Made by a program: the position numbers and the translations under genes. This document shows, in pieces, positions 4,756-58,278 of a stretch of 58,391 bases of DNA (position 1 is the first letter of the stretch; each line of letters begins with the position of its first letter). The notes under the pieces are model-generated. The model worked only from the letters and a program-made list of their open reading frames with translations, searched no databases and was not told the DNA's origin. This DNA is from an uncultured Curvibacter sp. (GTDB lineage Bacteria; Pseudomonadota; Gammaproteobacteria; Burkholderiales; Burkholderiaceae_C), in the NCBI GenBank assembly GCA_903834975.1, contig CAILKX010000024.1, forward strand, positions 1 through 58,391, read 5' to 3'.

Positions 4756-4906
4756 TGGGTCATTAAGGCGGTCAGGGTCAGCCAATCGTCAGCAGATGTG
4801 TCAACAATTCGTGGCAGAATGCCGAGTGCAATCAGGCCCTCTCACAGCCACTGTCGCATCCGCTAACCGGTCCAGCCGTGTCGCGGGAGGTTATCCACCA
4901 ACTTAT

Positions 4907-4923
4907 GCTTTCTGAAGGAAAGC
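4907..4923 (+). promoter_or_regulatory. 6-bp-stem hairpin directly 5' of the sucA Shine-Dalgarno
   Basis: GCTTTC-TGAAG-GAAAGC followed immediately by GGAGG (924-928 of the 4.9-kb line) and ATG at 4939. Confidence 0.4.
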
Positions 4924-4938
4924 GGAGGTCAGCGTAAT

Positions 4939-7806
4939 ATGAGCAGCCCGTCAACGGTCTACACCGCCTACCAAGGCAACACCTATCTCTTCGGGGGCAA
5001 CGCGCCCTATGTGGAAGAGATGTACGAAAACTACTTGGCCAACCCCGGTAGCGTGCCCACCAATTGGCGCGAGTATTTCGACGCCCTGCAACACGTGCCC
5101 GCCGTCGACGGCTCGCAAGCCCGCGATGTGCCTCACTTGCCGGTCATCAATGCTTTCGCCGAACGCGCCAAACAAGGTCAAACGAAGGTTGTGGTCGCCA
5201 GTGCCGACGCCGAGTTGGGCCGCAAACGCACCGCCGTTCAACAGTTGATCGCTGCCTACCGCAACGTGGGCACCCGCTGGGCCAACCTGGACCCGCTGCA
5301 ACGCACCGAGCGCGCCCACATTCCCCAGCTCGAAACGTCTTACTACGGTTTCACCGACGCTGACCAAGAAACCATTTTCAACATCAGCAACACCTTCTTT
5401 GGCAAGGACACAATGCCCTTGCGCGAGGTGTTGAATGCGCTGCGTGAAACTTATTGCGGCACCATCGGCGCCGAGTTCATGCACACCACCGACCAAGACC
5501 AAAAGGCTTGGTGGCAAAAGAAGCTGGAGAGCATTCGCAGCAAACCCAACTTCAACACCGATAAAAAGAAACAAATTCTGGACCGCCTGACCGCCGCTGA
5601 AGGCTTGGAGCGTTACTTGCACACCAAGTACGTGGGTCAAAAACGCTTCTCGCTCGAAGGGGGCGAAAGCTTCATTGCCGCCATGGACGAACTGATCCAA
5701 GCGGCTGGCACCCAAGGCGTGCAAGAAATTGTGATCGGCATGGCCCACCGGGGCCGCTTGAATGTGCTGGTGAACACCCTGGGCAAGAAGCCCGGTGATT
5801 TGTTTGCCGAGTTCGACCACACCGCCCCCGAAGACCTGCCTTCTGGCGACGTGAAATACCACCAAGGTTTCAGCTCGGACGTGGCCACCCCCGGCGGCCC
5901 CGTCCACTTGAGTTTGGCGTTCAACCCATCGCACTTGGAAATTGTGAATCCCGTGGTTGAAGGCTCGGTGCGTTCGCGCATGGACCGCCGCGGTGACCCC
6001 CAAGGCAAGCAAGTGTTGCCCGTGCTGGTGCACGGCGACGCGGCCTTTGGCGGCCAGGGGGTGAACCAAGAAACCTTGGCCTTGGCCCAAACCCGCGGGT
6101 ACACCACCGGCGGCACGGTGCACATCATCATTAACAACCAAATTGGCTTCACCACCAGCGATCCCCGCGACATGCGCTCCAGCGCCTATTGCACCGACAT
6201 CGTGAAGATGGTCGAAGCGCCGGTCTTGCACGTCAACGGCGACGACCCCGAAGCCGTGGTGTTGTGCATGCAACTCGCCCTCGAGTTCCGCATGACCTTC
6301 AGCCAAGACATCGTGGTCGACATCACTTGCTTCCGCAAATTGGGTCACAACGAACAAGACACCCCGAGCCTGACCCAGCCGCTGATGTACAAAAAAATCG
6401 CGGCTCACCCAGGCACTCGCAAGCTCTACGCCGACAAGTTGGCCGCGCAGGGCTTGGGCGCCACGTTGGGCGATGACATGGTCAAGGCCTACCGCGCAGC
6501 GCTCGAGGAAGGCCGTCACACGGTGGATCCCGTGGTGGCGAATTTCCAAAGCAAATTTGCGGTGGACTGGTCGCCCTATTTGGGTAAAAAGTGGACCGAC
6601 GCGGGCGACACGTCGATTCCGCTGTCCGAGTGGCACCGCCTGGCCAAGAGCGTCACCACCTTGCCTGAGGGCTTGACGCCGCACCAGTTGGTGAAAAAGG
6701 TCTATGACGACCGCGCCGCGATGGGCCGGGGTGACCTGCCGGTCGATTGGGGCATGGGCGAGTTGATGGCCTTCGCCTCTTTGGTCGCCAGCGGCTACCC
6801 TGTGCGTTTGTCGGGCGAAGACTCGGGTCGTGGCACCTTCACCCACCGCCACTCGGTGATTCACGATCAAAACCGTGAAAAATGGGACATTGGCACTTAC
6901 GTGCCTTTGCAAAACGTGGCCCCAAACCAGGCCCCGTTTGTGGTGATTGATTCCATCTTGTCCGAAGAAGCGGTGCTGGGTTTTGAGTACGGCTACGCCT
7001 CCAACGACCCCACCACGCTGGTGATTTGGGAAGCCCAGTTTGGTGACTTCGCCAACGGCGCTCAAGTCGTGATTGACCAGTTCATTGCCTCTGGTGAAGT
7101 GAAGTGGGGTCGTGTCAATGGCCTGACTTTGATGCTGCCGCACGGCTATGAAGGCCAAGGCCCAGAGCACAGCTCGGCGCGTTTGGAGCGTTTCATGCAA
7201 TTGGCCGCGGACACCAATATGCAGATCGTCCAGCCCACCACGGCCAGCCAGATCTTCCATGTGTTGCGTCGTCAAATGGTGCGCAACTTGCGCAAGCCGT
7301 TGATCATCATGACGCCCAAGTCCTTGTTGCGAAACAAGGATGCGACATCGCCTTTGTCTGAGTTCACCAAAGGCTCGTTCCAGACCATCATTCCTGAGAC
7401 CAAAGAACTCAAGGCCGACAAAGTCAAGCGCGTTCTGGCTTGCTCGGGCAAGGTTTATTACGACTTGGTCAAGAAGCGCGAAGAAAAGGGCCATGACGAT
7501 ACCGCCATCCTGCGTGTTGAACAGCTCTACCCCTTCCCGCACAAGGCCTTTGCTGCTGAACTCAAAAAATACCCGAACGCCACCGAAGTGGTGTGGGTCC
7601 AAGACGAGCCCCAAAACCAAGGCGCTTGGTTCTTCGTTCAGCACTACATCCACGAAAACATGACTGAAGGCCAAAAACTGGGCTACTCAGGCCGTGCCGC
7701 CTCGGCGTCGCCTGCAGTGGGTTATTCGCACCTGCACCAAGAGCAACAAAAAGCCTTGGTCGACGGCGCGTTCGCCAAGCTCAAAGGCTTTGTGTTGACC
7801 AAATAA
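4939..7806 (+). CDS. sucA: 2-oxoglutarate dehydrogenase E1 component
   Basis: 955 aa; GMAHRGRLNVLVN, SFNPSHLEIVNPVVEGSVR-type, HGDAAFGGQGV, TFTHRHSVIHDQ motifs. Confidence 0.97.
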   Translation: MSSPSTVYTAYQGNTYLFGGNAPYVEEMYENYLANPGSVPTNWREYFDALQHVPAVDGSQARDVPHLPVINAFAERAKQGQTKVVVASADAELGRKRTAVQQLIAAYRNVGTRWANLDPLQRTERAHIPQLETSYYGFTDADQETIFNISNTFFGKDTMPLREVLNALRETYCGTIGAEFMHTTDQDQKAWWQKKLESIRSKPNFNTDKKKQILDRLTAAEGLERYLHTKYVGQKRFSLEGGESFIAAMDELIQAAGTQGVQEIVIGMAHRGRLNVLVNTLGKKPGDLFAEFDHTAPEDLPSGDVKYHQGFSSDVATPGGPVHLSLAFNPSHLEIVNPVVEGSVRSRMDRRGDPQGKQVLPVLVHGDAAFGGQGVNQETLALAQTRGYTTGGTVHIIINNQIGFTTSDPRDMRSSAYCTDIVKMVEAPVLHVNGDDPEAVVLCMQLALEFRMTFSQDIVVDITCFRKLGHNEQDTPSLTQPLMYKKIAAHPGTRKLYADKLAAQGLGATLGDDMVKAYRAALEEGRHTVDPVVANFQSKFAVDWSPYLGKKWTDAGDTSIPLSEWHRLAKSVTTLPEGLTPHQLVKKVYDDRAAMGRGDLPVDWGMGELMAFASLVASGYPVRLSGEDSGRGTFTHRHSVIHDQNREKWDIGTYVPLQNVAPNQAPFVVIDSILSEEAVLGFEYGYASNDPTTLVIWEAQFGDFANGAQVVIDQFIASGEVKWGRVNGLTLMLPHGYEGQGPEHSSARLERFMQLAADTNMQIVQPTTASQIFHVLRRQMVRNLRKPLIIMTPKSLLRNKDATSPLSEFTKGSFQTIIPETKELKADKVKRVLACSGKVYYDLVKKREEKGHDDTAILRVEQLYPFPHKAFAAELKKYPNATEVVWVQDEPQNQGAWFFVQHYIHENMTEGQKLGYSGRAASASPAVGYSHLHQEQQKALVDGAFAKLKGFVLTK

Positions 7807-43470: not shown

Positions 43471-44121
43471 TCAGGCGGCCTTTAACAAGCCCTTGTTTTC
43501 AATAAAAGCCACGACCTCTTGCAGGCCCGTGAGGGTTTTGAGGTTGGTCATGACAAAGGGTTTGGCCCCGCGCATGCGCAAGGTGTCGCTGCGCATGACT
43601 TCCAAATTGGCGCCGACATGCGGGGCCAGGTCGGTTTTGTTGATGACAAACAAATCGCTCTTGGTGATACCGGGGCCGCCTTTGCGGGGGATCTTTTCGC
43701 CAGCCGCCACATCAATCACATAGATCGTCAAATCGCTCAACTCAGGGCTGAACGTGGCGGCCAAGTTGTCGCCGCCCGATTCGATGAAGACGATGTCGGC
43801 ATTGGGGAACTGCGCCAGCATGCGGTCGATGGCCTCCAAATTGATGGAGGCGTCTTCGCGAATCGCCGTATGGGGGCACCCCCCGGTTTCGACGCCCAAG
43901 ATGCGCTCAGCCGGCAAAGCGCCGCTGACGGTCAGCAGACGCTGGTCTTCTTTGGTGTAGATGTCGTTGGTAATCGCAATCAGGTCGTACTGCGCCCGCA
44001 TGGCTTTGCACAACATTTCGAGCAAGGTGGTTTTGCCGGAACCCACGGGGCCGCCAATGCCCACCCGCAGGGGGGGAAGTTTTTTGGAACGGCCAGGAAT
44101 ATGGTGCAGTGCTGAGGTCAT
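43471..44121 (-). CDS. ureG: Urease accessory GTPase UreG
   Basis: [40 protein letters not shown]. Confidence 0.97.
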
Positions 44122-44123
44122 GG

Positions 44124-44840
44124 TTAACTTCTAAAGAGTCGTGAATATTGTTGTTCGTGTTGGGCCGAAAGAATGGCCAAGCGGGGTGCAAAAGCTTGTC
44201 GTTCCTCATCCTTCAAAGCGCAGGCGAGGGCCACGGCTTCAGGAATTTCCCGCGCCAGGCGCAACAAGATTCGCTGACCCGCACTTTGTCCCAAGGGAAT
44301 CGATTTAACCGCCGTTTGGCTCATGTTTTCACACCAGGCAAAGGCGTAGGCGCTGACGGTTTGGTGCACATCGGCCTCGCCGCTTGGGTGATTGAGCCCT
44401 TGTGTTTGCAACCCTTGGATTTGTAGGGCACGGGCGGCAATTGCAAAAGCCACGGGGTAAGTGGCCATCCAATCGCTGGGCAGATCGAGTGACCGGGCGG
44501 CTTCAGGGGCCAGGTTACGCAACCAATCCATCAGCGAGCGACCCATTTGCAAACTTTGTAAACGAAATTCAGCGGTTTCACGGGTTTGTAAAACCCAATC
44601 GTTCAGTGCCCTGAGGCGCTGAATATCGTCTGTGGCCAGGGCCTTCGCTGAAGCCGCCACCACCGATAAATCGCCGCGCGCCAAACTGAAGACCAATTGG
44701 TCGCTTAGCCACTCCGCCGCGCTGACTTCGGTGGTCACACCCGCCCATTCGGTCGCTGCTTCGAATCCTTCTGAATAAGAAAACCCACCCACCGGCAAGG
44801 CTGGCGAGGCCAGCCAGAGCAGGTGCAAGAGCGAATGCAT
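44124..44840 (-). CDS. ureF: Urease accessory protein UreF
   Basis: [29 protein letters not shown]. Confidence 0.95.
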
Positions 44841-44847
44841 GGTATTT

Positions 44848-45354
44848 TCAGTGGGCGTGATCATGTGAATGACCGGGCCCATGATCATGTGAATGTCCAT
44901 GATGACCGTAGGCGCCGTTCTCGGGCTCAAACGATTCGTCGACGGCCTTCACAATCAGGTGCATGGCGCGCAGCATGTCGGCCAAGACATGGTCGGGTTC
45001 AATTTTTAAATGGTCCGGCTTGAGCTCAATGGGCACATGGCGATTGCCCAAGTGGTAGGCCGCGCGCACCAAGTCAAAGGGGCTGCCGTGTTGTGGGCAG
45101 GGGGTGATGCGCAAAACGGCTTGTGGTGCGGCGATCACGCGCACCATCGAGCCGTCCTCGGCCACCAACACATCGCCGCCGCGCACCACTTGGCCGCGTG
45201 GCAAGAAAATACCCAAATGGCGTCCCTGTGAGTCGGTGGCGTCAAAGCGGCTTTTTTGGCGCACATCCCAATCCAATTCGACGGTGGCCGCGCGCTTCAA
45301 CAGCACGGCGGCCAAGCCTTGGCCTTGGGGCAGCAACTTGGAAATTTGCAACAT
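44848..45354 (-). CDS. ureE: Urease accessory Ni-metallochaperone UreE
   Basis: [11 protein letters not shown]; His-rich tail [18 protein letters not shown]. Confidence 0.95.
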
Positions 45355-45374
45355 GGGCTCTGAAGGGTGCTGAG

Positions 45375-47108
45375 TTAAAACAAGAAATAGCGCTGCGCCA
45401 TGGGCAGGCTGGTGGCCGGTTCGCAAACCAACAACTGGCCGTCGGCGCGCACTTGGTAAGTTTGCGCGTCGACATCCATGCGCGGTGCATAGTGGTTCAG
45501 CACCATGTCGCGCTTGCCGATGTTGCGGGTGTTTTTGACCACAGCCAAGGTTTTCTTCAAGCCCATTTTTTGACCGACCCCCGCCGCCATGCCGGCTTGA
45601 GAAATGAAGGTCAAAGAGCTGTGACTGAGCGAGCCGCCAAAGGCGCCAAACATGGGGCGGTAATGCACCGGTTGTGGCGTCGGGATGGAGGCATTGGGGT
45701 CTCCCATTGCGGCCATGGCAATCGTGCCGCCTTTCAAAATCAGGGCGGGCTTGACGCCGAAGAAGGCCGGTTTCCAAATCACCAAGTCGGCCCATTTGCC
45801 GGCTTCAATGCTGCCCACTTCGTGGCTGATGCCGTGGGTGATGGCGGGGTTAATGGTGTACTTGGCCACATAGCGACGTGCGCGAAAGTTGTCGTTGCGC
45901 TCGGTGTCTGCGCCTTCCACGTCGTGCAATTTGCCGCGTTGTTGTTTCATCTTGTGGGCCGTTTGCCAGCAACGCAAAATGACCTCGCCAACGCGGCCCA
46001 TGGCTTGGCTGTCTGAGCTAAAGAGACTGATGGCACCCAGGTCGTGCAAGATGTCTTCGGCGGCAATGGTCTCTTTGCGGATGCGGCTTTCTGCGAACGC
46101 CAAGTCTTCGGCGATGGACGGATCCAAATGGTGACAGACCATGAGCATGTCCACATGCTCGTCCAAGGTGTTGATGGTGTAGGGCCGGGTGGGGTTGGTG
46201 GAACTCGGCAGCACATTGGCTTCACCGACCACTTTCAAAATGTCAGGGGCATGCCCACCGCCCGCGCCTTCGGTGTGAAAGGTGTGGATGGTGCGTCCCT
46301 TGAAGGCGGCCACGGTGTCCTCCACAAAGCCCGATTCGTTCAAGGTGTCGGTGTGGATGGCCACTTGCGTGTCAGTGGCTTCGGCCACATTCAAACAATT
46401 GTCGATGGCCGCCGGGGTGGTACCCCAGTCTTCGTGGAGTTTTAAGCCAATCGCACCGGCTTCGATTTGTTCGTGCAAGGCGCCTGGCAAACTCGCGTTG
46501 CCCTTGCCCAAAAATCCCAGGTTCATGGGAAAAGCGTCGGCGGCTTGCAGCATGCGTTCAAGGTGCCAAGGTCCGGGCGTGCAGGTGGTGGCAAAGGTGC
46601 CCGTTGCAGGGCCGGTGCCTCCGCCAATCATGGTGGTGACGCCGCTGCAAAGGGCTTCTTCAATTTGTTGCGGCGCGATGAAGTGAATGTGTGTGTCGAT
46701 GCCCCCCGCGGTGACGATATTGCCTTCGCAACTGATGACTTCGGTGCCAGGGCCAATCACGATGTCCACGCCCGGTTGTGTGTCGGGGTTGCCCGCCTTG
46801 CCAATTTTGACAATGCGCCCCCCTTTCAAACCGATGTCGGCCTTCACGATGCCCCAGTGATCCAAGATGACCGCGTTGGTAAGGACGGTGTCGACGGCAC
46901 CTTCGGCGCGGCTGAATTGGCTTTGGGCCATGCCATCGCGGATGGTTTTGCCACCGCCAAATTTGACTTCTTCTCCGTAACTGCCCGCCGCCAGGGTGAA
47001 GTCTTTTTCAATTTCAATGACCAAATCGGTATCGGCCAGGCGCAGGCGGTCACCCACGGTGGGGCCAAAAATTTCGGCATAAGCACGACGTGAAATGCTG
47101 CTCATCAC
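45375..47108 (-). CDS. ureC: Urease alpha subunit
   Basis: [32 protein letters not shown] (carbamylated Lys), [22 protein letters not shown]. Confidence 0.98.
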
Positions 47109-47410
47109 AAGGCTCCTTGAACCAGGCCGCGAAAGCCAAAGATGCGGCGATCACCGCCAATGTCCACCAGCGTCACGGTGCGCTCTTGGCCCGGCTCGAA
47201 ACGCACCGCGGTGCCCGACGCAATGTTTAAACGCATGCCTTGAGCCACTTGGCGGTCAAAACCCAGCGCGGCATTGGTTTCGGCAAAGTGGTAGTGGGAG
47301 CCGACTTGAATCGGGCGATCGCCCGTGTTTTTCACCAAGATGGTGCAAGTGCGTCGGCCCACGTTGAGGGGGTGTTCGCCGGGGTCGGTGATCAGTTCGC
47401 CTGGAATCAT
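47105..47410 (-). CDS. ureB: Urease beta subunit
   Basis: [19 protein letters not shown]...[23 protein letters not shown] overlap with ureC. Confidence 0.97.
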
Positions 47411-47455
47411 GCGTGCCTCTTGTGCCAATGTTGTGCCAGTGGAAAGGGGGTAAGG

Positions 47456-47758
47456 TCAAATAATGGGTTGGTGAACGGTTACCAATTTGGTGCCATCTGG
47501 GAAGGTAGCTTCGACTTGGATGTCCGGAATCATCTCGGCCACGCCGTCCATCACGTCTTGACGCGCCAAGATGGTGCGACCTTCGCTCATCAGTTGGGCC
47601 ACCGTCTTGCCGTCACGGGCACCTTCCATGACGGCAGCGCTGATCAGGGCCACCGCTTCCGGATAGTTCAATTTCAAACCGCGCGCCATGCGCCGCTCCG
47701 CGAGCAACGCCGCGGTGAATATCAACAGTTTGTCTTTCTCTCGGGGGGTGAGTTCCAT
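47456..47758 (-). CDS. ureA: Urease gamma subunit
   Basis: [36 protein letters not shown]; start at 47758. Confidence 0.97.
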
Positions 47759-47781
47759 GGTCTTTTTCCATCCAATTTCAT

Positions 47782-47796
47782 GCAAGCATTGTGCCG
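47782..47796 (-). promoter_or_regulatory. Candidate sigma54 (RpoN) promoter for ureABCEFG
   Basis: Minus strand CGGCAC-AATGC-TTGC(A): -24 GG and -12 GC at correct spacing, about 25 nt before the ureA ATG. Confidence 0.6.
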
Positions 47797-47851
47797 CTTT
47801 TGTCCGTCATTCAGGCCGCCTGTTTTGAATGGATCAGAAATATTTCCAAAG

Positions 47852-47868
47852 TTGGCACGGCCTTTGCG
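47852..47868 (+). promoter_or_regulatory. Candidate sigma54 (RpoN) promoter for urtABCDE
   Basis: AAAGTTGGCACGGCCTTTGCG: near-perfect match to mrNrYTGGCACG-N4-TTGCW. Confidence 0.8.
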
Positions 47869-47948
47869 ATAGCGTTTTGGCACTCAAGGCCAAAGTTTTG
47901 AGGCAAGTCCTAAGTTCTGTTTTTAGTCAACCTGTTTGGAGTCACCCC

Positions 47949-49214
47949 ATGATGAATCGTCGCGGAAGTTTGAAAACCCTGGCCGTTGCGGCCGCGCTGT
48001 CTGTTGGATCTTTGGTGCCCGCCTTTGCGGCTGACACCATCAAAGTTGGTGTGTTGCACAGCTTGTCTGGCACCATGGCCATTTCTGAAACCGTCTTGAA
48101 AGACACCGTTCTGATGGCCATTGATGAAATCAATGCCAACGGGGGTGTGTTGGGCAAAAAACTCGAACCCGTGGTGGTCGACCCTGCTTCTAACTGGCCT
48201 TTGTTCGCAGAAAAAACCAAGCAATTGCTGGGTCAAGACAAGGTCTCCGTGATCTTCGGTTGCTGGACTTCGGTTTCACGCAAATCGGTGCTGCCCGTCG
48301 TCGAAGAAATGAATGGCCTGTTGTTCTACCCCGTGCAATACGAAGGTGAAGAACTCTCTAAAAACGTGTTTTACACCGGTGCTGCGCCGAACCAACAAGC
48401 CATCCCTGCCGTTGATTATTTGATGAGCAAAGACGGTGGCGGCGCCAAGCGCTTTGTGCTGTTGGGTACCGACTATGTGTATCCCCGTACCACCAACAAA
48501 ATCTTGCGCGCTTACTTGCACAGCAAGGGCATTCAAGACAAAGACATCGACGAAAAATACACCCCTTTCGGTCACTCCGATTACCAAACCATCGTGGCTG
48601 ACATCAAGAAGTTCTCGCAAGGCGGCAAAACCGCGGTGGTCTCCACCATCAATGGCGACTCCAACGTGCCCTTCTACAAAGAGCTGGGCAATGCAGGCTT
48701 GAAGGCCAAAGACGTGCCCGTGGTGGCCTTCTCCGTGGGTGAAGAAGAACTGCGCGGCGTCGACACCAAACCCTTGGTGGGTCACTTGGCGGCTTGGAAC
48801 TACTTCATGAGCCTGAAGAACCCCACCAACGATGCCTTCATCAAGAAGTGGTCTGCCTATGCCAAGGCCCACAACATCGCCGGCCACAAAGACAAACCTT
48901 TGACCAACGACCCGATGGAAGCCACCTACATCGGCATCAACATGTGGAAGCAAGCGGTAGAAAAAGCCAAGTCCACGGATGTGGACAAGGTCATTGCGGC
49001 CATGGCGGGTCAAAAGTTCACCGCGCCCAGCGGCATCACGTCTGAGATGGACAGCAAGAACCACCACTTGCACAAATCGGTCTTCATCGGCGAGATCAAG
49101 GCCGATGGTCAATTCAACGTGGTTTGGAAAACACCCGCACCCGTCAAAGCCAAGCCTTGGAGCCCTTACATCGAAGGCAACGACAAGAAGCCTGATGAGC
49201 CTGTGACCAAGTAA
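47949..49214 (+). CDS. urtA: Urea ABC transporter substrate-binding protein
   Basis: ADTIKVGVLHSLSGTMAISETVLKDTVLMAIDEINANGGVLG; FGCWTSVSRKSVLPV; signal peptide. Confidence 0.96.
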   Translation: MMNRRGSLKTLAVAAALSVGSLVPAFAADTIKVGVLHSLSGTMAISETVLKDTVLMAIDEINANGGVLGKKLEPVVVDPASNWPLFAEKTKQLLGQDKVSVIFGCWTSVSRKSVLPVVEEMNGLLFYPVQYEGEELSKNVFYTGAAPNQQAIPAVDYLMSKDGGGAKRFVLLGTDYVYPRTTNKILRAYLHSKGIQDKDIDEKYTPFGHSDYQTIVADIKKFSQGGKTAVVSTINGDSNVPFYKELGNAGLKAKDVPVVAFSVGEEELRGVDTKPLVGHLAAWNYFMSLKNPTNDAFIKKWSAYAKAHNIAGHKDKPLTNDPMEATYIGINMWKQAVEKAKSTDVDKVIAAMAGQKFTAPSGITSEMDSKNHHLHKSVFIGEIKADGQFNVVWKTPAPVKAKPWSPYIEGNDKKPDEPVTK

Positions 49215-49231: not shown

Positions 49232-50839
49232 ATGCCTTTGCAATTTTTCCTCGTCGTTCGTTGGTCGGTGGCCTGCCTGCTGGCTCTTTTGATGGCGGGT
49301 CACGCCCAAGCGCTGACCGCCAGCCTAGCCAAACAATTGGTCACAGCCGATTCGGATGCCCGAATTCAAGCCCTGGGCCAAGCGGTTGAGCAACTGAGCC
49401 AAACGCCTGATCCGGCCACCTTGGTGCTGATCCAGGCCTTGGCCAACGACGAGGTGAAATTCAAAGGCGATCGTGTTTTTCTGATGCACGACAACCAACC
49501 CCGCGACGCGGTCAGCGGTGAGTTGGTTGCTCTGCCCGACGACGCAGAAGACGTCGTGAACAACAACCGCATGCGCGGTGAAATCGACGCCGCTTTGGCG
49601 TGGTTGAAACTTTTTGATGCCAATCCCGCCCAACGTTTGGCAGCCATCAAAACCCTGGCTGACGAATCCGATGCCGCCCATTTGCCTCTGCTTGAGAAAG
49701 CGCTGTCGCAAGAAACCACGCCTGATTTGCAGCGTCAGCTGCGGTTGGTGCGTGCCCGAATTTTATTGGCCAGCCCGCAAGCTGACCAACGCATTGAAGC
49801 CGTTCAGGTGTTGTCCAACGAGCACGACGCCACCACCAAAACCTTGTTGGTTGAGCAGCTCAAAAATGAAACCGACCCCAAAGTGCAATCGGCCCTTCAA
49901 CTGGCCTTGATCAAAATCAACAACGCCTTGGCTTGGAGTGAGCGCGCCGCGGCTGTTTTTTCTGGTCTCAGCTTGGGCAGTATTTTGTTGTTGGTCGCCC
50001 TCGGTCTGGCCATCACTTACGGCTTGATGGGCGTCATCAACATGGCACATGGTGAATTGATGATGCTCGGCGCTTATGCGACCTACACCGTTCAGGTGAT
50101 GTTTCAAAAATTCCTACCCGCATCCTTTGATTGGTATTTGTTGGCGGCTGTGCCGGTCTCGTTCTTGGTATCGGCCTTGGCGGGGGCGGTGTTGGAGCGC
50201 GGGGTGATACGCTTTTTGTACGGTCGTCCTTTGGAAACCCTGCTCGCCACCTGGGGCATTAGTTTGATGTTGATGCAATTGGTTCGCACGCTCTTTGGCG
50301 CTCAAAATGTGGGGGTTGAAAACCCCAGTTGGATGAGTGGCGGCCTCGTTTTGATGGGCAACTTGCAGTTGCCTTGGAACCGCATCATCATCATTGCATT
50401 TGCCTTCTTCGTGCTGCTGTGTATGTCCCTGTTGATTGGCAAGACCCGCTTGGGCTTGTTTGTTCGGGGTGTCACGCAAAACCGCCCCATGGCTTCGTGC
50501 ATGGGGGTCAACACCGCGCGCATCGATACCTATGCCTTTGCATTGGGCTCGGGCATTGCCGGCCTTGCGGGTTGTGCACTCAGCCAAATTGGCAATGTGG
50601 GGCCTGACTTGGGCCAAGGTTACATCGTCGACTCTTTCATGGTGGTGGTCTTGGGCGGCGTGGGGCAATTGGTCGGCACTGTCTATGCGGCCTTGGGTCT
50701 TGGTATTTTGAACAAATTCTTAGAGGGCTGGGTGGGCGCGGTGCTCGCCAAGATTGCCGTTCTGATCTTCATTGTGGTGTTCATCCAAAAACGGCCTCAA
50801 GGCATTTTTGCGGTGAAGGGCCGGACCGCACAAGACTGA
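49232..50839 (+). CDS. urtB: Urea ABC transporter permease UrtB
   Basis: Long N-terminal alpha-helical repeat region followed by LivH-like permease (GVINMAHGELMMLGAYATY). Confidence 0.95.
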   Translation: MPLQFFLVVRWSVACLLALLMAGHAQALTASLAKQLVTADSDARIQALGQAVEQLSQTPDPATLVLIQALANDEVKFKGDRVFLMHDNQPRDAVSGELVALPDDAEDVVNNNRMRGEIDAALAWLKLFDANPAQRLAAIKTLADESDAAHLPLLEKALSQETTPDLQRQLRLVRARILLASPQADQRIEAVQVLSNEHDATTKTLLVEQLKNETDPKVQSALQLALIKINNALAWSERAAAVFSGLSLGSILLLVALGLAITYGLMGVINMAHGELMMLGAYATYTVQVMFQKFLPASFDWYLLAAVPVSFLVSALAGAVLERGVIRFLYGRPLETLLATWGISLMLMQLVRTLFGAQNVGVENPSWMSGGLVLMGNLQLPWNRIIIIAFAFFVLLCMSLLIGKTRLGLFVRGVTQNRPMASCMGVNTARIDTYAFALGSGIAGLAGCALSQIGNVGPDLGQGYIVDSFMVVVLGGVGQLVGTVYAALGLGILNKFLEGWVGAVLAKIAVLIFIVVFIQKRPQGIFAVKGRTAQD

Positions 50840-50854
50840 TCTGGTGACAAGACT

Positions 50855-51973
50855 ATGACCACAACCTTAGAAATTCCAAAGCCGCCTGCCTTGCTCAGCC
50901 GTTCAGGCTGGAGCGGCTTTTTATTGGCCTTGGTGCTCATCTGCTTGATGGCACCCGCCATGAACTTACTGGCCCCCGATGGCAGCTGGTGGCACCTCAG
51001 CGACTACGCGGTCGCCTTGATTGGCAAAATCATGTGCTACGCCATTGCCGCTTTGGCGATGGACTTGATCTGGGGTTTTGCGGGCATTTTGAGCCTGGGC
51101 CATGGCTTGTTCTTTGCCTTGGGTGGCTATGTCATGGGCATGTACCTGATGCGTCAAATTGGCCGCGACGGTAACTACAAAAGCGACTTGCCCGACTTCA
51201 TGGTGTTTTTGGATTGGAAGACCCTGCCTTGGCATTGGACCTTCTCCAACAGCTTCATCGCCACCTTGATTTTGGTGGTGGTCGTGCCGGCGGTCGTGGC
51301 TTGGGTGTTTGGTTTCTTCGCCTTTCGCTCGCGCATCAAAGGGGTTTACTTTTCCATCATCACGCAGGCTTTGACGTTTGCGGCGATGCTGTTGTTCTTT
51401 CGCAATGAAACGGGTTTTGGCGGCAACAACGGCTTCACCGACTTCAAGCGCATCTTGGGCATGCCCATCGCCACACCGGGCATGCGCATGGGCCTGTTTG
51501 TGCTGACCGGCTTGACCTTGATGGGTTTCTACTTGATGGCCCGGTGGTTGATGCGCTCCAAGTTTGGCCGCGTCTTGCAAGCCATTCGAGATGCGGAAAC
51601 CCGGGTCATGTTTTCTGGCTACAACCCGCTGCCTTACAAGCTCACCATTTGGACCCTGTCGGCGGTGATGTGCGGTGTGGCCGGTGCTTTGTATGTGCCC
51701 CAGGTGGGCATCATCAACCCCAGCGAAATGAGCACGGCCGCCTCGATTGAGATGGTGGTTTGGACGGCAGTAGGGGGCCGAGCCACCCTGATTGGCCCCA
51801 TCTTGGGCGCCTTCTTGGTCAACGGCGCCAAGAGTTGGCTGACCGTGGTGGCCCCTGAATTTTGGTTGTATTTCTTGGGCGCTTTGTTCATTGGTGTGAC
51901 CCTGTTTTTGCCCACCGGTGTGGTGGGCTTGATCAAGAAACTAAAGAAACTGCGCGGGGAGGGCCAACCATGA
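50855..51973 (+). CDS. urtC: Urea ABC transporter permease UrtC
   Basis: LivM-like permease (GFAGILSLGHGLFFALGGYVMGMYLM). Confidence 0.95.
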   Translation: MTTTLEIPKPPALLSRSGWSGFLLALVLICLMAPAMNLLAPDGSWWHLSDYAVALIGKIMCYAIAALAMDLIWGFAGILSLGHGLFFALGGYVMGMYLMRQIGRDGNYKSDLPDFMVFLDWKTLPWHWTFSNSFIATLILVVVVPAVVAWVFGFFAFRSRIKGVYFSIITQALTFAAMLLFFRNETGFGGNNGFTDFKRILGMPIATPGMRMGLFVLTGLTLMGFYLMARWLMRSKFGRVLQAIRDAETRVMFSGYNPLPYKLTIWTLSAVMCGVAGALYVPQVGIINPSEMSTAASIEMVVWTAVGGRATLIGPILGAFLVNGAKSWLTVVAPEFWLYFLGALFIGVTLFLPTGVVGLIKKLKKLRGEGQP

Positions 51974-52746
51974 GCGTGGTGACCAACGACGAAGGCGTGA
52001 ATGTCGATCACGGTCGCATCCTGTATTTGGAAGACGTGAACGTGAGTTTTGATGGTTTTAAAGCCATCAACAACCTGTCGCTGGACATTGCGCCCGGCGA
52101 GTTGCGTTGCATCATTGGCCCCAACGGTGCCGGAAAAACCACGATGATGGACATCATCACCGGCAAAACCAAGCCCGATTCGGGCACGGTTTTCTTTGGC
52201 AGCACGATTGACTTGCTGCGCTACCGCGAGGCTGAAATTGCCCAGTTGGGCATAGGCCGTAAGTTCCAGAAACCCACCGTGTTTGAGAACCTCACGGTGT
52301 TCGAAAATCTGGAGCTGGCCTTGAAAACCGACAAAGGTTTTCGCGCTTCGATGTTCTTCAAATTGAACTCCGAGCAAACCGATCGTTTGGCCGAGGTCTT
52401 GCACACCATTCACTTGGCTGAACAGGTGACGCGGCAAGCAGGCAACCTGAGTCATGGCCAAAAGCAATGGCTAGAAATTGGCATGTTGTTGGTGCAAGAA
52501 CCCAAGTTGTTGTTGCTTGACGAACCGGTGGCGGGCATGACCGACGAGGAAACGGCGCGCACAGCGGAATTGTTTTTATCGCTGAAAGGCAAGCACTCCC
52601 TGATGGTGGTGGAACACGACATGGGCTTCATCAAAACCATTTCTGAGATCGTGACGGTGCTCTGCGATGGCTCGGTGCTGGCGCAAGGCACGCTGGATCA
52701 GGTGCAAGCCGATGAGCGCGTGATTGAGGTTTATTTGGGTCGCTGA
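51970..52746 (+). CDS. urtD: Urea ABC transporter ATP-binding protein UrtD
   Basis: GPNGAGKTTMMDIITGKTKPDSG; LSHGQKQWLEIGMLL; LLLDEPVAGMTDEE. Confidence 0.95.
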   Translation: MSVVTNDEGVNVDHGRILYLEDVNVSFDGFKAINNLSLDIAPGELRCIIGPNGAGKTTMMDIITGKTKPDSGTVFFGSTIDLLRYREAEIAQLGIGRKFQKPTVFENLTVFENLELALKTDKGFRASMFFKLNSEQTDRLAEVLHTIHLAEQVTRQAGNLSHGQKQWLEIGMLLVQEPKLLLLDEPVAGMTDEETARTAELFLSLKGKHSLMVVEHDMGFIKTISEIVTVLCDGSVLAQGTLDQVQADERVIEVYLGR

Positions 52747-52762
52747 TTGGCCGCCAAACGCT

Positions 52763-53455
52763 ATGCTCACAGTTCAAAACATCCATCAATATTACGGCGG
52801 TTCCAACATCTTGCGCGACGTGAGTCTGCAAGCGCCCTTGGGCCAAGTGACGTTGCTCTTGGGACGCAACGGCGTCGGTAAGACCACCTTGCTCAAATGC
52901 CTGATGGGCTTGGTGCCCATCCGCAGTGGGCACATTCAGTTGGATGGCCAACCGATAGAGAAGTTCACGCCCTATGAACGGGCCAAAGCAGGCATTGGTT
53001 ATGTGCCTCAAGGGCGTGAAATTTTTGCCCGCTTGACGGTGGAAGAAAACCTGCGCATGGGCTTGGCCACCCGGTCCGGACGCACCCCGATTCCCGCTGA
53101 GTTGTTTGAACTTTTCCCGATTCTGCAGCAGATGAAACACCGCCGCGGGGGTGATTTGTCGGGGGGGCAACAGCAACAACTGGCGATTGCCCGGGCCCTC
53201 GCCGCAGGTCCTAAATTGCTGATCTTGGACGAGCCCACCGAAGGCATTCAGCCCAGCATCATCAAAGACATTGGCCGCGTGATCCGCATGTTGGCGGACC
53301 GGGGCGACATGGCCATTTTGCTGTGCGAACAATATTACGATTTTGCAGAAGCCTTGGCCGATCACTATTGTGTGATGGAACGCGGTGAAGTGATCGCCAG
53401 CGGACCGGGCAGCGACATGCCAAGCAAGGGCATTCGCCAATTGGTGGCGATTTAA
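52763..53455 (+). CDS. urtE: Urea ABC transporter ATP-binding protein UrtE
   Basis: MLTVQNIHQYYGGSNILRDVSL; LGRNGVGKTTLLKCLMG; LSGGQQQQLAIARAL. Confidence 0.95.
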   Translation: MLTVQNIHQYYGGSNILRDVSLQAPLGQVTLLLGRNGVGKTTLLKCLMGLVPIRSGHIQLDGQPIEKFTPYERAKAGIGYVPQGREIFARLTVEENLRMGLATRSGRTPIPAELFELFPILQQMKHRRGGDLSGGQQQQLAIARALAAGPKLLILDEPTEGIQPSIIKDIGRVIRMLADRGDMAILLCEQYYDFAEALADHYCVMERGEVIASGPGSDMPSKGIRQLVAI

Positions 53456-53494: not shown

Positions 53495-54355
53495 TCACAT
53501 CGCCCAAATGCGCGGCGTGTTGTCGCTCAATTGGTGACCAACGCCCCACAGGTCTTGGCGCCATTGCAACCAAACGGTTTTCAACGTTTGCATCACGGGT
53601 TCCACTTGTGGACCCAAGACGCGCAACACCACCACTTGGTCGTTCGGACACGTGACCCCAGTCAAGGCAGCCAAAGGCATTTGCGCACTGATTTCACGGG
53701 CGCTGTTTAGGGCCAGTTCGACCCCTTTGTGCTGCTTGAGTTCGGCGCCACGCAACCAAAAGAGCGTGCCCACACAACGCATGCCGTGCAAACCCAGGCG
53801 GCTCTGCAGCCAACGTTGATCAAGGGCGGTATTGGCCGATAAGCACCCGCGCTCCAGCCAAACCCCAGGCACTTCCAGGTGTTGCCACAGGCTGCCGGTT
53901 TCAAACGGCTGATTCGCGTGCGGCAAACCGAGGGCGGTCACGTCCCAACCCATGATCTGTGCTGTGGGCGCCAATTGGGCGCGCACTTCGTTGCGCCCAC
54001 GGCAGGCGTTGTAGGCGATGGCCTCCAGGGGCAGCCATTCAAGGCGGCCTTCGTTGGCTACATTCAAAGTTGTTTTTTGGACCGCTTCGGCGTCAGCAGA
54101 ACGGTAAAAACGCGTCGCGCCGGGCGTGGTCATGAGGCCGTGAGCACCGGGCTCAACATGGACATTAAGTTCTAGGGTGTCTCCGCCCACAAGCCCACTC
54201 GGGGGGTGCACCAAGACGTTATGGCAAATGGCAGGGCCTTCAGGATAAAGGCTTTGCAAGATGCGCAGCGGCCCTTGGTGCAGGTAGCGGGCCACGGTTT
54301 GACGGCCTGCTTGATTGAGTGAGTAGCGCAGATCCAGTTGCGCGTGCCAAGACAT
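53495..54355 (-). CDS. ureD: Urease accessory protein UreD (UreH)
   Basis: HQGPLRILQSLYPEGPAICHNVLVHPPSGLVGGDTLELNV; TPGATRFYRS. Confidence 0.95.
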   Translation of the reverse strand: MSWHAQLDLRYSLNQAGRQTVARYLHQGPLRILQSLYPEGPAICHNVLVHPPSGLVGGDTLELNVHVEPGAHGLMTTPGATRFYRSADAEAVQKTTLNVANEGRLEWLPLEAIAYNACRGRNEVRAQLAPTAQIMGWDVTALGLPHANQPFETGSLWQHLEVPGVWLERGCLSANTALDQRWLQSRLGLHGMRCVGTLFWLRGAELKQHKGVELALNSAREISAQMPLAALTGVTCPNDQVVVLRVLGPQVEPVMQTLKTVWLQWRQDLWGVGHQLSDNTPRIWAM

Positions 54356-54428: not shown

Positions 54429-55445
54429 TTAGAACTTGTGACGAATACCCACGCCGTAGCTGTCGCCTGTCGCGTAGGTGGTGATCTTATCGTTCATGTA
54501 GTTGGCATAAACGTCGGTGCGAGCCGAGAGTTTGTAGTCATAGCCAATGGTGGCGGTTTGACGGGTCTTGCCTGCATCGACCTTGGTGCTGGCGTAGTCG
54601 GCCATGATGCTGCCGCCGCCCGCAGGGATGGAAGCGCCCACCGAGTTGGTTTTGGTCGAAATGGACGAGCCGCTGGCCTTGGCAGAACCGGTGGTGGCGT
54701 AAAACTTGACCACGGACAAGTCGTAAGAGCCGCCGATCATCCAGTCGTTTTTGGTCACGCTGTAAGCGGTGCTGGTGCCAGGGTTAGACAATTGGTCTTG
54801 TTCAACAAAACCAGTCAAAGCCAAGGGACCTGCGAAGTACAAGAAGTTACCACCGATGTTGCTCTTGCTTTGACCGGCAATACCGCCGATTTGGTAATGC
54901 AAGTTGGCTGACAAGCCACCGAAGTTGGGGGTGGAGTAAATGACTTCGTTGTTCCAACCAGTGTCAGAAGGCGAAGTGGCCGACCAGCCGGTGCCGTTGA
55001 ACAAAGGCACGTTGGCGTGCAACACCAAAGGAGCGTAGGTGAAAGAATCGCCGAAGGGATTGAAAATCACCGTGGGCAAGAAGTTGGGCGCCAAACCGCG
55101 GCCCAACAACACCGTACCGAAACCACCGCTCAAAGACACGTTGGCGTCGCGTGAGAACAAGGTGTCACCCGAAAAACGGCCTGAACCGCCATTGGCGTTG
55201 TTGAAAAAGCCGTCCAAAGCAAAGCTGGCCTTCAAGCCGCCGCCCAAGTCTTCAGTGCCTGCAAAACCAAACCAAGGGGTGGTCATGCCACCGCTAACCG
55301 ATTGGGTCGCAGCCGCTTTGTCACCGGCCATGCGAATGGAGGCAACGCCTTCGTCCATCGTGCCTTGGACTTTCACCGAGGACTGGGCTTGCGCCAAGCA
55401 GGCCATGCTGGCCAAGGTGATCGCGGTCAAAAGTTGCTTTTTCAT
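54429..55445 (-). CDS. Gram-negative general porin (Omp32-like family)
   Basis: Signal peptide MKKQLLTAITLASMACLAQAQSSVKVQGTMDEGV; FAGTEDLGGGLKASFALDGFF; terminal GIRHKF; good RBS (AGGAG). Confidence 0.93.
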   Translation of the reverse strand: MKKQLLTAITLASMACLAQAQSSVKVQGTMDEGVASIRMAGDKAAATQSVSGGMTTPWFGFAGTEDLGGGLKASFALDGFFNNANGGSGRFSGDTLFSRDANVSLSGGFGTVLLGRGLAPNFLPTVIFNPFGDSFTYAPLVLHANVPLFNGTGWSATSPSDTGWNNEVIYSTPNFGGLSANLHYQIGGIAGQSKSNIGGNFLYFAGPLALTGFVEQDQLSNPGTSTAYSVTKNDWMIGGSYDLSVVKFYATTGSAKASGSSISTKTNSVGASIPAGGGSIMADYASTKVDAGKTRQTATIGYDYKLSARTDVYANYMNDKITTYATGDSYGVGIRHKF

Positions 55446-55496: not shown

Positions 55497-56270
55497 TCAT
55501 TGGGCGTTGGAGCCCCGATGGGCCCAGGCGGTGGTGTGCCGCTCCACCCAGCTGAACAATTCATACATGACCATGGCCATGGCCCCCACCACCACCAAAC
55601 CGGCAAAGGCCAAGCCCATTTGCATGGAGGAGCCCGCCGAGATCATCAGGTAGCCAATGCCTTCGTTGGCCGCGGTCATTTCAGACACGGTGGTGCCCAC
55701 AAAGGCGAGCGTGATGGCCACTTTGAGAGAACCATAAAAATAGGGCAAGGAGCGGGGCAACCCCACTTTGACGAGCACGTCCCAGCGCTTGGCACCGAGC
55801 ACGCGCAGCACATCTTCGAGTTCGGGCTCCAGCGTGGCGAGTCCGGTGGCAATGTTCACCATGATGGGAAAGAAGCTGATCAGAAACGCCGTCAGAATGG
55901 CTGGGCCCGCGCCAATGCCAAACCAAACCACCAAGATCGGCACAAAAGCCGCCTTGGGCAGCGCGTTGAAGGCCGTCATCAAGGGGTAAACAGCGGCGTA
56001 GGCCAAACGGGAGCTGCCAATCACAAAACCCAGCAAAACGCCGACCACAATCGCCAGGCCAAAGCCACTCATCGTCACCCAAAAGGTGCGCCAAGCATGG
56101 CCGGCAATGATGCCTTTGAATTCATTGAGTTGTTCGGCGATGCGCAAGGGGCTTGGGAAAATGAATTCGGACACATTCAAGCCCGTGCACAACACTTGCC
56201 ACAAGACAATCACCGCGATGAGCAGCACCCATGGGGCGCATTTTTCTAAGGTTTTGGTGTTCATGTTCAA
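55497..56270 (-). CDS. ABC transporter permease, NitT/TauT (SsuC-like) family
   Basis: LPKAAFVPILVVWFGIGAGPAILTAFLISFFPIMVN. Confidence 0.9.
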   Translation of the reverse strand: MNMNTKTLEKCAPWVLLIAVIVLWQVLCTGLNVSEFIFPSPLRIAEQLNEFKGIIAGHAWRTFWVTMSGFGLAIVVGVLLGFVIGSSRLAYAAVYPLMTAFNALPKAAFVPILVVWFGIGAGPAILTAFLISFFPIMVNIATGLATLEPELEDVLRVLGAKRWDVLVKVGLPRSLPYFYGSLKVAITLAFVGTTVSEMTAANEGIGYLMISAGSSMQMGLAFAGLVVVGAMAMVMYELFSWVERHTTAWAHRGSNAQ

Positions 56271-56274
56271 ACCT

Positions 56275-57090
56275 TTAAGCCGCTGGCTTTCTCACGGCGC
56301 CAATGTGTTCGCGCAACTCGAACACCAAATCGCCAAACGCTTTGGAATAGGTGAGTTCCAGCTCACGTGGCCTTGGCAAATCGATGTCGCGTTTCACCAC
56401 AAATCGACCAGGGCTTTTGCTCATCACATAAACCGTGTCGGCCAAAAAAACAGATTCGCGCAAATCGTGCGTGACCAAAATCACGTTGAACTGTTGCTCG
56501 GCCTGCAAGTCACGCAAAATGCACCAGAGCTCCTCGCGGGTAAAGGCGTCCAAAGCGCCAAAAGGTTCGTCGAGCAAGAGCATCTGTGGCTCATGAATCA
56601 AGGCCCGGCAAATGCTGGCGCGTTGTTGCATGCCGCCAGAAAGCTGCCATGGGAACTTGTCCTCGTAACCGGCCAAGCCCACTTTTTGCAGCAAGGCGCG
56701 GGCACGTGCTTCAAATTCAGGGCGTTTCTTTTTGAACTGGCCGCGGTAAGGCTCTACGATTTCCAGCGGCAACAACACATTCTCGACCGTGGTGCGCCAA
56801 GGAAGCAAAGACGGTGCTTGAAAGGCCATGCCCGAAATTTTTAGGGGGCCGGTGACGGCTTGGCCATCGATGCGGATACTGCCCTTGGAGGGCATTTTCA
56901 AACCCGTGGTCAACTTCATGAAGGTCGATTTGCCGCAGCCTGACGGCCCCACGATGGCGATGAATTCGCCCCGTTGGACTTGCAGATCGATGCCCTCGAC
57001 CGCATAGTGGCCTTGGGCCAGCAGCTCGTCGTTGTAGGCCAGCCAAACGTCTTTGAATTCAACGAATGGCGCTTTCATGGCGTCACTCAT
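56275..57090 (-). CDS. ABC transporter ATP-binding protein, NitT/TauT family
   Basis: GPSGCGKSTFMKLTTGL; LSGGMQQRASICRAL; LLLDEPFGALDAFTRE. Confidence 0.93.
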   Translation of the reverse strand: MSDAMKAPFVEFKDVWLAYNDELLAQGHYAVEGIDLQVQRGEFIAIVGPSGCGKSTFMKLTTGLKMPSKGSIRIDGQAVTGPLKISGMAFQAPSLLPWRTTVENVLLPLEIVEPYRGQFKKKRPEFEARARALLQKVGLAGYEDKFPWQLSGGMQQRASICRALIHEPQMLLLDEPFGALDAFTREELWCILRDLQAEQQFNVILVTHDLRESVFLADTVYVMSKSPGRFVVKRDIDLPRPRELELTYSKAFGDLVFELREHIGAVRKPAA

Positions 57091-58139
57091 TTTTTAGGCA
57101 GAACGTCCAGCTCTTTGGCCGTGGGCAGGTAAGCCGCGCTCCACAACACATCGGGATTGACGCGGGACTTGGTGGCGAAGGCGTCCGACACTTGTGAGGC
57201 CATCAAAGACAAACGACCCGGGTTCAGCTGGCCAAAGCCCTCAGCGCGGGCGTCGGGGCTGTTGACCACGGTGTCAATGGCCAATTTGAGTCGACGGGTT
57301 TCCAGGTCGGTGTTGACGATGCCGTCGCGTTCCTTCACAAAAGCCACGGCAGCGCTGGGGTTGGCAATGACTTCCTTGGCCCCTTTGGTGAAAGCCTTCA
57401 GGAAGGCTTTCACCGCGGCGGGGTTTTCTTTCAGCAATTTGGGTGAGGCGATGATGACGTTGCCATACAACTTCACGCCATGGCTGGCATAGGGCAGGAT
57501 GGTCACGTCCTCCGCCTTGACGCCACGGGCTTCCAGGTTCAACAGCGAGGTGAAGGTGAAGCCGGTGATGGCGTCCACGTCACCGCGGACCAACATGGTT
57601 TCGCGCAAGGGCGGGTCCATCGTGGTCCATTGCACGCTGTTCACATTGTTGGCTTTGGCAAAAATGGGGAAGGCACGGCGACCGGCGTCAAACACCGGCG
57701 CCCCCAGTTTTTTGCCACTCAGGTCGGCGGTCGACTGGATGCCTGATTTTTTCAAGGCCATGACCGAAGCGGGGGTGTTGTTGTAGACCACCATGACCGC
57801 CACAGGCTTGTTGGGCACGTCGGGGTTGTTGGCCCAGAATTCCATCAAGGCCGCCAAATCGGCAAAGCCCATGTCGTAGTTACCGGTGGCCACGCGTTGC
57901 ACGGCGACCCCCGATCCGTTGCCCGCATCGATCGTGACGTCGAGGTTGGCGTCTTTGAAATAGCCTTTGGCCGTGGGCAACAAGAAAAAAGCCGAAGGGC
58001 CTTCAAAGCGCCAGTCGAGTTGGAATTTGATCGGGGTGGGTGCACTGCTCTGCGCCAAGGCGGTCTGGGTTAACAGCGGCACAGTCAAAGCAGCCACGCT
58101 GCAACCAAGAGCCAAGACGAGGGAACGACGAACATTCAT
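57087..58139 (-). CDS. ABC transporter substrate-binding protein, NMT1/SsuA-like
   Basis: FQLDWRFEGPSAFFLLPTAKGYFKDANLDVTIDAGNGSGVAVQRVATGNYDMGFADLAALMEF; signal peptide from ATG 58139. Confidence 0.9.
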   Translation of the reverse strand: MNVRRSLVLALGCSVAALTVPLLTQTALAQSSAPTPIKFQLDWRFEGPSAFFLLPTAKGYFKDANLDVTIDAGNGSGVAVQRVATGNYDMGFADLAALMEFWANNPDVPNKPVAVMVVYNNTPASVMALKKSGIQSTADLSGKKLGAPVFDAGRRAFPIFAKANNVNSVQWTTMDPPLRETMLVRGDVDAITGFTFTSLLNLEARGVKAEDVTILPYASHGVKLYGNVIIASPKLLKENPAAVKAFLKAFTKGAKEVIANPSAAVAFVKERDGIVNTDLETRRLKLAIDTVVNSPDARAEGFGQLNPGRLSLMASQVSDAFATKSRVNPDVLWSAAYLPTAKELDVLPKK

Positions 58140-58213
58140 AGCAACAAAATCCATAAGTGGGTGTCTTTGCAACAGCAAGAAAAGTGCCTGCTTTTTAGGC
58201 TGGCTTGCGCCTA

Positions 58214-58278
58214 TTTGGTGCATCCGTCCCCCGGTTTAAGGGGCTTCCTGGTGCCAAAGGGGCAAAATATGCACCAAA
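58214..58278. repeat. 10-bp inverted repeat (TTTGGTGCAT...ATGCACCAAA) upstream of the NMT1-like ABC operon
   Basis: Arms 58214-58223 and 58269-58278 are exact reverse complements. Confidence 0.8.

Follow-up and report, generated by a model that had tools for sequence, protein, structure and literature searches.

Predicted back-to-back sigma54 promoters for urease and urea import in a freshwater relative of Curvibacter, with a candidate NtrC enhancer in urease coding DNA

Introduction

How are urea import and urea breakdown switched on together when their operons diverge from a 190-bp spacer in which two sigma54 promoters are predicted and no good site for the activator is found? The locus that raises this question lies in a window of 58,391 nucleotides (the whole stretch of DNA analysed here), which is one contig of a 2.5-Mb assembly that is about 98% complete. 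The host is a freshwater bacterium akin to Rhodoferax, Curvibacter, and Limnohabitans; among named relatives, a Curvibacter MAG whose UrtA is identical stands closest, followed by Limnohabitans and Rhodoferax.

Nitrogen control of urea use through sigma54 and NtrC is already known in the Burkholderiaceae, and the promoters described here are a new instance of it. What is new is the layout, a compact divergent pair that would switch import and breakdown together, along with the coupling of a predicted urtA sigma54 promoter to divergent placement beside ureA and a candidate enhancer in urease codons. If confirmed, the locus would offer a natural system for the relocation of an enhancer into coding DNA, comparable over dozens of genomes.

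Results

Organization of the ure-urt locus

The spacer separates ureA (urease gamma; 47456-47758, minus strand; PRK13241/TIGR00193), which starts at 47758, from urtA (47949-49214, plus strand; TIGR03407), which starts at 47949. Downstream of ureA, on the minus strand, follow ureB (urease beta; 47105-47410), ureC (urease alpha; 45375-47108), a ureE region with UreE_N and UreE_C domains (44848-45417; exact start unsettled), ureF (44124-44930; PF01730; start also unsettled), and ureG (43471-44121; TIGR00101). On the plus strand, urtA leads into urtB (49232-50839; TIGR03409), urtC (50855-51973; assigned by position and a permease domain), urtD (open frame 51862-52746, with the true start probably near 51970), and urtE (52724-53455; TIGR03410).

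Matches to RNA families were also recorded in the window. The sucA RNA motif (RF01070; 74.9 bits) lies at 4854-4934 on the plus strand, and a long open frame begins directly after it, at 4939. The 5'ureB sRNA (RF02514; 94 bits) matches at 46655-46944 on the plus strand, antisense to ureC. Because this Rfam family is by nature antisense to urease coding sequence, the match was set aside as an sRNA; homology with the coding sequence of the Helicobacter urease gene can yield such a match and is probably its source here.

Two outward sigma54 sites in the spacer

The plus strand of the spacer reads TTGGCACGGCCTTTGCG, in which TGGCACG occupies 47853-47859 and TTGC 47864-47867. The predicted -24/-12 promoter of urtABCDE, TGGCACGGCCTTTGCG (47853-47868), therefore agrees with TGGCACGN4TTGCW at 11/12, and its sole mismatch is the final W. 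The predicted promoter of ureABCEFG on the minus strand, CGGCACAATGCTTGCA (47796-47781), scores 10/12 with two mismatches in the -24 element, where C replaces T and A replaces G. The GG-N10-GC spacing is correct at both sites, and their -24 elements are 56 bp apart. Given the -24/-12 spacing, transcription of urtA is predicted to start near 47879, leaving a 70-nt leader, and that of ureA near 47770, leaving a 12-nt leader without a canonical Shine-Dalgarno sequence. These are the site sequences, the distance and, within what spacing geometry can predict, the start sites and leader lengths that had been put forward in the first-pass annotation, including the description of the urtA site as an RpoN consensus in all but its last base and of the ureA site as correctly spaced.

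A scan of both strands of the 58-kb window returned two sites with a score of at least 11 and nine with a score of at least 10. For any given strand of the spacer, the chance expectation is about 0.003 at the higher score and about 0.013 at the lower, and for both sites in outward orientation it falls to about 4e-5; chance alone is therefore not expected to place such an outward pair in a single spacer. Across the whole genome, pattern searches found TGGCACRN4TTGCW with one mismatch at 79 places and a reversed-pattern control at 35, so that a lone site is weak evidence, and the pair and its conservation bear the claim. No sigma70-like site was found in 47300-48100. A further sigma54-like site (10/12; 47438-47423, minus strand), which overlaps the start of ureB, was rejected as a promoter because the segment is missing in the sister genome G008.

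RpoN, NtrC, and the likely activator

The genome encodes a single rpoN (PF04552, 215 bits) and three strong sigma54-activator domains. One of these, in the glnA-ntrB-ntrC cluster C72, is the sole strong activator above the TIGR01818 cut-off for NtrC. The second adjoins flagellin/fliE and the third is located on the flgA contig; both score below the NtrC cut-off and are apparently flagellar. As the only strong activator without a flagellar setting, NtrC is therefore the likely activator of ure and urt. The same genome carries NtrC dyads upstream of the sigma54 sites at glnK (identified by eye from its N-terminal sequence), glnA, and a Gcw_chp gene.

Published work on relatives points the same way. 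In Burkholderia cenocepacia, ntrC mutation reduces expression of ureA, ureC, urtB, and urtD, and in the H111 ntrC mutant ureA changes by -4.4 and urtB by -5.9 log2 (PMC5491218). In Herbaspirillum seropedicae SmR1, a sigma54 promoter lies upstream of urtA (PMC3093359). We consider it very probable that NtrC controls the ure-urt promoter pair as well.

NtrC-like dyads in the spacer and in urease coding DNA

Where, then, would NtrC bind? It had been remarked at the outset that activator sites were not obvious between the promoters, and the spacer bears this out: the best NtrC match in its 190 bp is 6/10, and it contains no TGGTGC or GCACCA half-site. Using a matrix built only from the host's own glnK, glnA, and Gcw_chp sites, we found the best local matches within ureA or ureB. 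These NtrC-like dyads are TTACCAATTTGGTGC (47479-47493; 8/10; matrix 13.9), which covers the ureA codons for GTKLVT; TCACCAAGATGGTGC (47332-47346; 9/10; matrix 13.9) in ureB; and GCGCCAAGATGGTGC (47563-47577; 9/10; matrix 13.6) in ureA. Three of the six top matrix sites of the 58 kb thus fall within 232 bp in ureA/ureB (P = 0.0008 under random placement). The dyad at 47563 is 9/10 in G008 and 8/10 in L015, where a core base is lost. The L015 contig stops short of the 47479 site, whose equivalent in G008 and in Limnohabitans-type loci is TCACCAATTTGGTGC (matrix 18.1); the G008 copy differs by one base from the glnK site.

Across the family, an intergenic NtrC dyad of at least 8/10 is present in 21 of the 26 divergent loci with a gap above 235 bp versus 2 of the 17 with a shorter gap. 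As a separate observation, the region between the two promoters in loci L151, L153, L055, L165, and L185 holds TGGTGC half-sites that recur in a single orientation, spaced 19 bp apart.

The NtrC matrix match in ureA was then compared with a null of GC3-matched synonymous codons, with loci collapsed to clusters. Short-gap divergent loci exceeded this null (10 clusters; mean z 1.2; p = 0.005; Wilcoxon p = 0.01), and no excess in ureA was found in long-gap divergent loci (21 clusters; p = 0.32) or in non-divergent loci (18 clusters; p = 0.99). Because the 235-bp cut between short and long gaps was set post hoc, after the data had been seen, we added a threshold-free correlation, in which z is lower where the gap is longer (rho = -0.42; p = 0.02; 31 clusters). 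This matrix test with its GC3-matched null supersedes an earlier consensus-count test that was positive by sequence and weak once collapsed to clusters. An excess in ureA that is confined to short-gap loci suggests a coding enhancer common to both promoters. The proposal in the first-pass annotation of an enhancer in coding DNA serving both promoters accordingly gains statistical support from the synonymous null, short of proof, and we rate the presence of such an element inside ureA as close to an even proposition.

The most durable alternative accepts both promoters as real and NtrC-driven and dispenses with coding sites. NtrC would act from solution when phospho-NtrC is abundant, or through weak binding sites of non-canonical sequence within the spacer, and the dyads in ureA and ureB would be by-products of the encoded GTKLVT and RTILAR. 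Codons for GTKLVT do match NtrC at 7-9/10 in most ureA genes, including those without a divergent urtA, and the window's own ureA, taken alone, does not differ significantly from the synonymous null (p = 0.22). Against this alternative, the excess over that null is confined to short-gap divergent loci, intergenic dyads are retained in most long-gap loci and mostly lacking in short-gap ones, and the spacer has neither half-site. We regard this alternative as unlikely, though it deserves serious weight. For compact loci we tentatively propose, at somewhat less than even confidence, that one NtrC enhancer in ureA coding DNA, downstream of one promoter and upstream of the other, may activate both, constrain synonymous codons, and take over when the spacer is shorter than about 235 bp and the intergenic sites are lost.

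Conservation of the promoters across the Burkholderiaceae

The Burkholderiaceae sample used to assess conservation comprised 159 ureA loci and 79 urtA loci. When the spacer is aligned with those of two sister genomes, both sigma54 sites stand out as conserved islands and the rest has diverged. Every one of the 43 divergent loci in the first set has a site that points at urtA, scores 10/12 or better, and lies within 120 nt (0.4 in shuffles), as do 6 of 6 examined later, for a total of 49/49; among urtA loci without a divergent ureA, 5 of 59 have one. For ureA-directed sites of at least 9/12, the first set gave 38/43 among divergent loci (1.7 in shuffles) and 47/57 among the others (3.0 in shuffles), and the later loci gave 5/6 and 43/53; across all divergent loci, 43 of 49 have such a site within 120 nt. 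From these counts, the predicted ureA sigma54 promoter is a feature of the family at large, and the predicted urtA sigma54 promoter accompanies the divergent arrangement. On the UrtA tree, the arrangement requires at least five changes and the urtA promoter mostly tracks it; when promoter gain was tested against rearrangement on the tree, the number of supported independent pairs was too small for significance. With recurrence in 49 divergent loci, rpoN and ntrC both present, and no sigma70-like site nearby, the back-to-back promoters that were originally predicted for ureABCEFG and urtABCDE are, in our judgement, almost certainly real.

It could still be that only the urtA site works and that the ureA site is decaying, with ureA transcribed weakly or from some other place. 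The score of the ureA site is 10/12 here and drops to 8/12 in G008, where the -12 element has lost its TT (CCGC), and the predicted leader is only 12 nt long and has no canonical Shine-Dalgarno sequence. Yet GG-N10-GC and the surrounding 17-bp block are retained in all three sisters, sigma54 sites at ureA are found family-wide, predicted ureA leaders across the family are usually short and mostly without a Shine-Dalgarno sequence, and no sigma70-like site was found in 47300-48100. Decay of the ureA promoter is accordingly improbable.

Among the non-divergent genomes are 25 in which the sigma54 site of ureA begins 27-30 nt before the ATG (for example, L158, L159, L177, L189, L205, L207, L208, and L209). 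The distance is exactly 27 in 14 of them, and the eight such loci of the first batch bear eight different genus codes. Transcription is therefore predicted to start about 1-4 bases from the AUG, and the urease mRNA of those 25 genomes would be leaderless or near-leaderless.

Of the urtA loci that lack a divergent ureA, about one in four has a response regulator of the NarL/LuxR type close to urtA (for example, L016 1452-2501, L017 1500-2600, and L209 455-1471). In these loci urtA is mostly without a sigma54 site, and the regulator possibly reflects a different wiring of urea import. It was dropped as a general explanation for non-divergent loci because it is present in only about a quarter of them; the other upstream genes are diverse.

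Another enhancer-binding protein might drive the pair, either one of the two remaining activators or one missing from the assembly, which at about 98% completeness could lack such a gene; a spacer without NtrC dyads would fit. We find this marginally less credible than a decaying ureA site, since one of the remaining two adjoins flagellin/fliE, the other is on the flgA contig, and both fall below the NtrC cut-off, and since the ure and urt targets are NtrC-dependent in a member of the family (PMC5491218). That the sites are chance matches to a short consensus, as 79 one-mismatch sites against 35 for the control might hint, is exceedingly improbable given the expectation of about 4e-5 for an outward pair in this 190-bp spacer, and recurrence in every divergent locus refutes it for the class.

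A probable third sigma54/NtrC unit that includes ureD

A third sigma54 site, AGGCACTTTTCTTGCT (58174-58189, minus strand; 10/12), lies upstream of a gene for an NMT1/THI5-like substrate-binding protein (57087-58154, minus strand; probable start MDFVAM or MNVRRS; stops occur upstream of the probable start in two sisters). Directly upstream of both this site and the probable start of the binding protein is the NtrC-like dyad GCACCAAATAGGCGC (58207-58221, minus strand), which at 16.2 is the best matrix match in the window. GG-N10-GC at the third site is kept in 9/9 genomes of the genus, with a weak site (8/12) in L271; the dyad is kept in two small-genome sister species and was not seen in the large genomes of the genus.

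Below this site, a single-strand series runs from the binding protein through an ABC ATPase (56275-57090), a permease (55497-56270), and a porin-like gene (54429-55445) to ureD (53495-54355), all on the minus strand. The series may form one transcript, probably driven by the third sigma54/NtrC site (58221-58174). ureD, its last gene, is apart from the ureABC operon and occupies the same place in both sisters; through this third unit it may be induced along with the other urease genes.

Discussion

A model for joint induction of urea import and breakdown

We propose that the two outward sigma54 promoters of the spacer serve ureABCEFG on one side and urtABCDE on the other, and that closed complexes of RpoN and RNA polymerase would wait at both. 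Under nitrogen limitation, phosphorylated NtrC would open both promoters, and importer and enzyme would consequently be induced together. Rather than the spacer, NtrC would bind two or three dyads in ureA and the start of ureB (47332-47577), about 280-520 bp upstream of the urtA promoter and about 200-460 bp downstream of the ureA promoter, and loop from there to both. Taken as a whole, this chain of two NtrC-activated sigma54 promoters sharing a looping enhancer in coding DNA is a reading that we favor by a small measure.

Comparison with known systems

Relative to B. cenocepacia H111 and H. seropedicae SmR1 (PMC5491218, PMC3093359), the locus has the same genes and, as we infer, shares their activator and sigma factor. 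The urtABCDE genes of H. seropedicae are placed upstream of its ure cluster, whereas here the operons diverge from two predicted sigma54 promoters, and ureD has moved to a probable third unit. Within its own genome, the ure-urt pair shares the -24/-12 element with the glnK, glnA, and Gcw_chp promoters; those have NtrC dyads closely upstream, whereas the ure-urt spacer has none.

The hyp-hyc intergenic region of Escherichia coli likewise has divergent sigma54 promoters, under FhlA. It resembles ure-urt in having two outward sigma54 promoters with one activator, but the activator and genes are different and the activator sites are intergenic. Finally, the intragenic sigma54 sites of E. coli (PMC4591121) are likewise functional elements of a sigma54 regulon in coding DNA; those elements are promoters, whereas the intragenic element proposed here would be the activator's enhancer.
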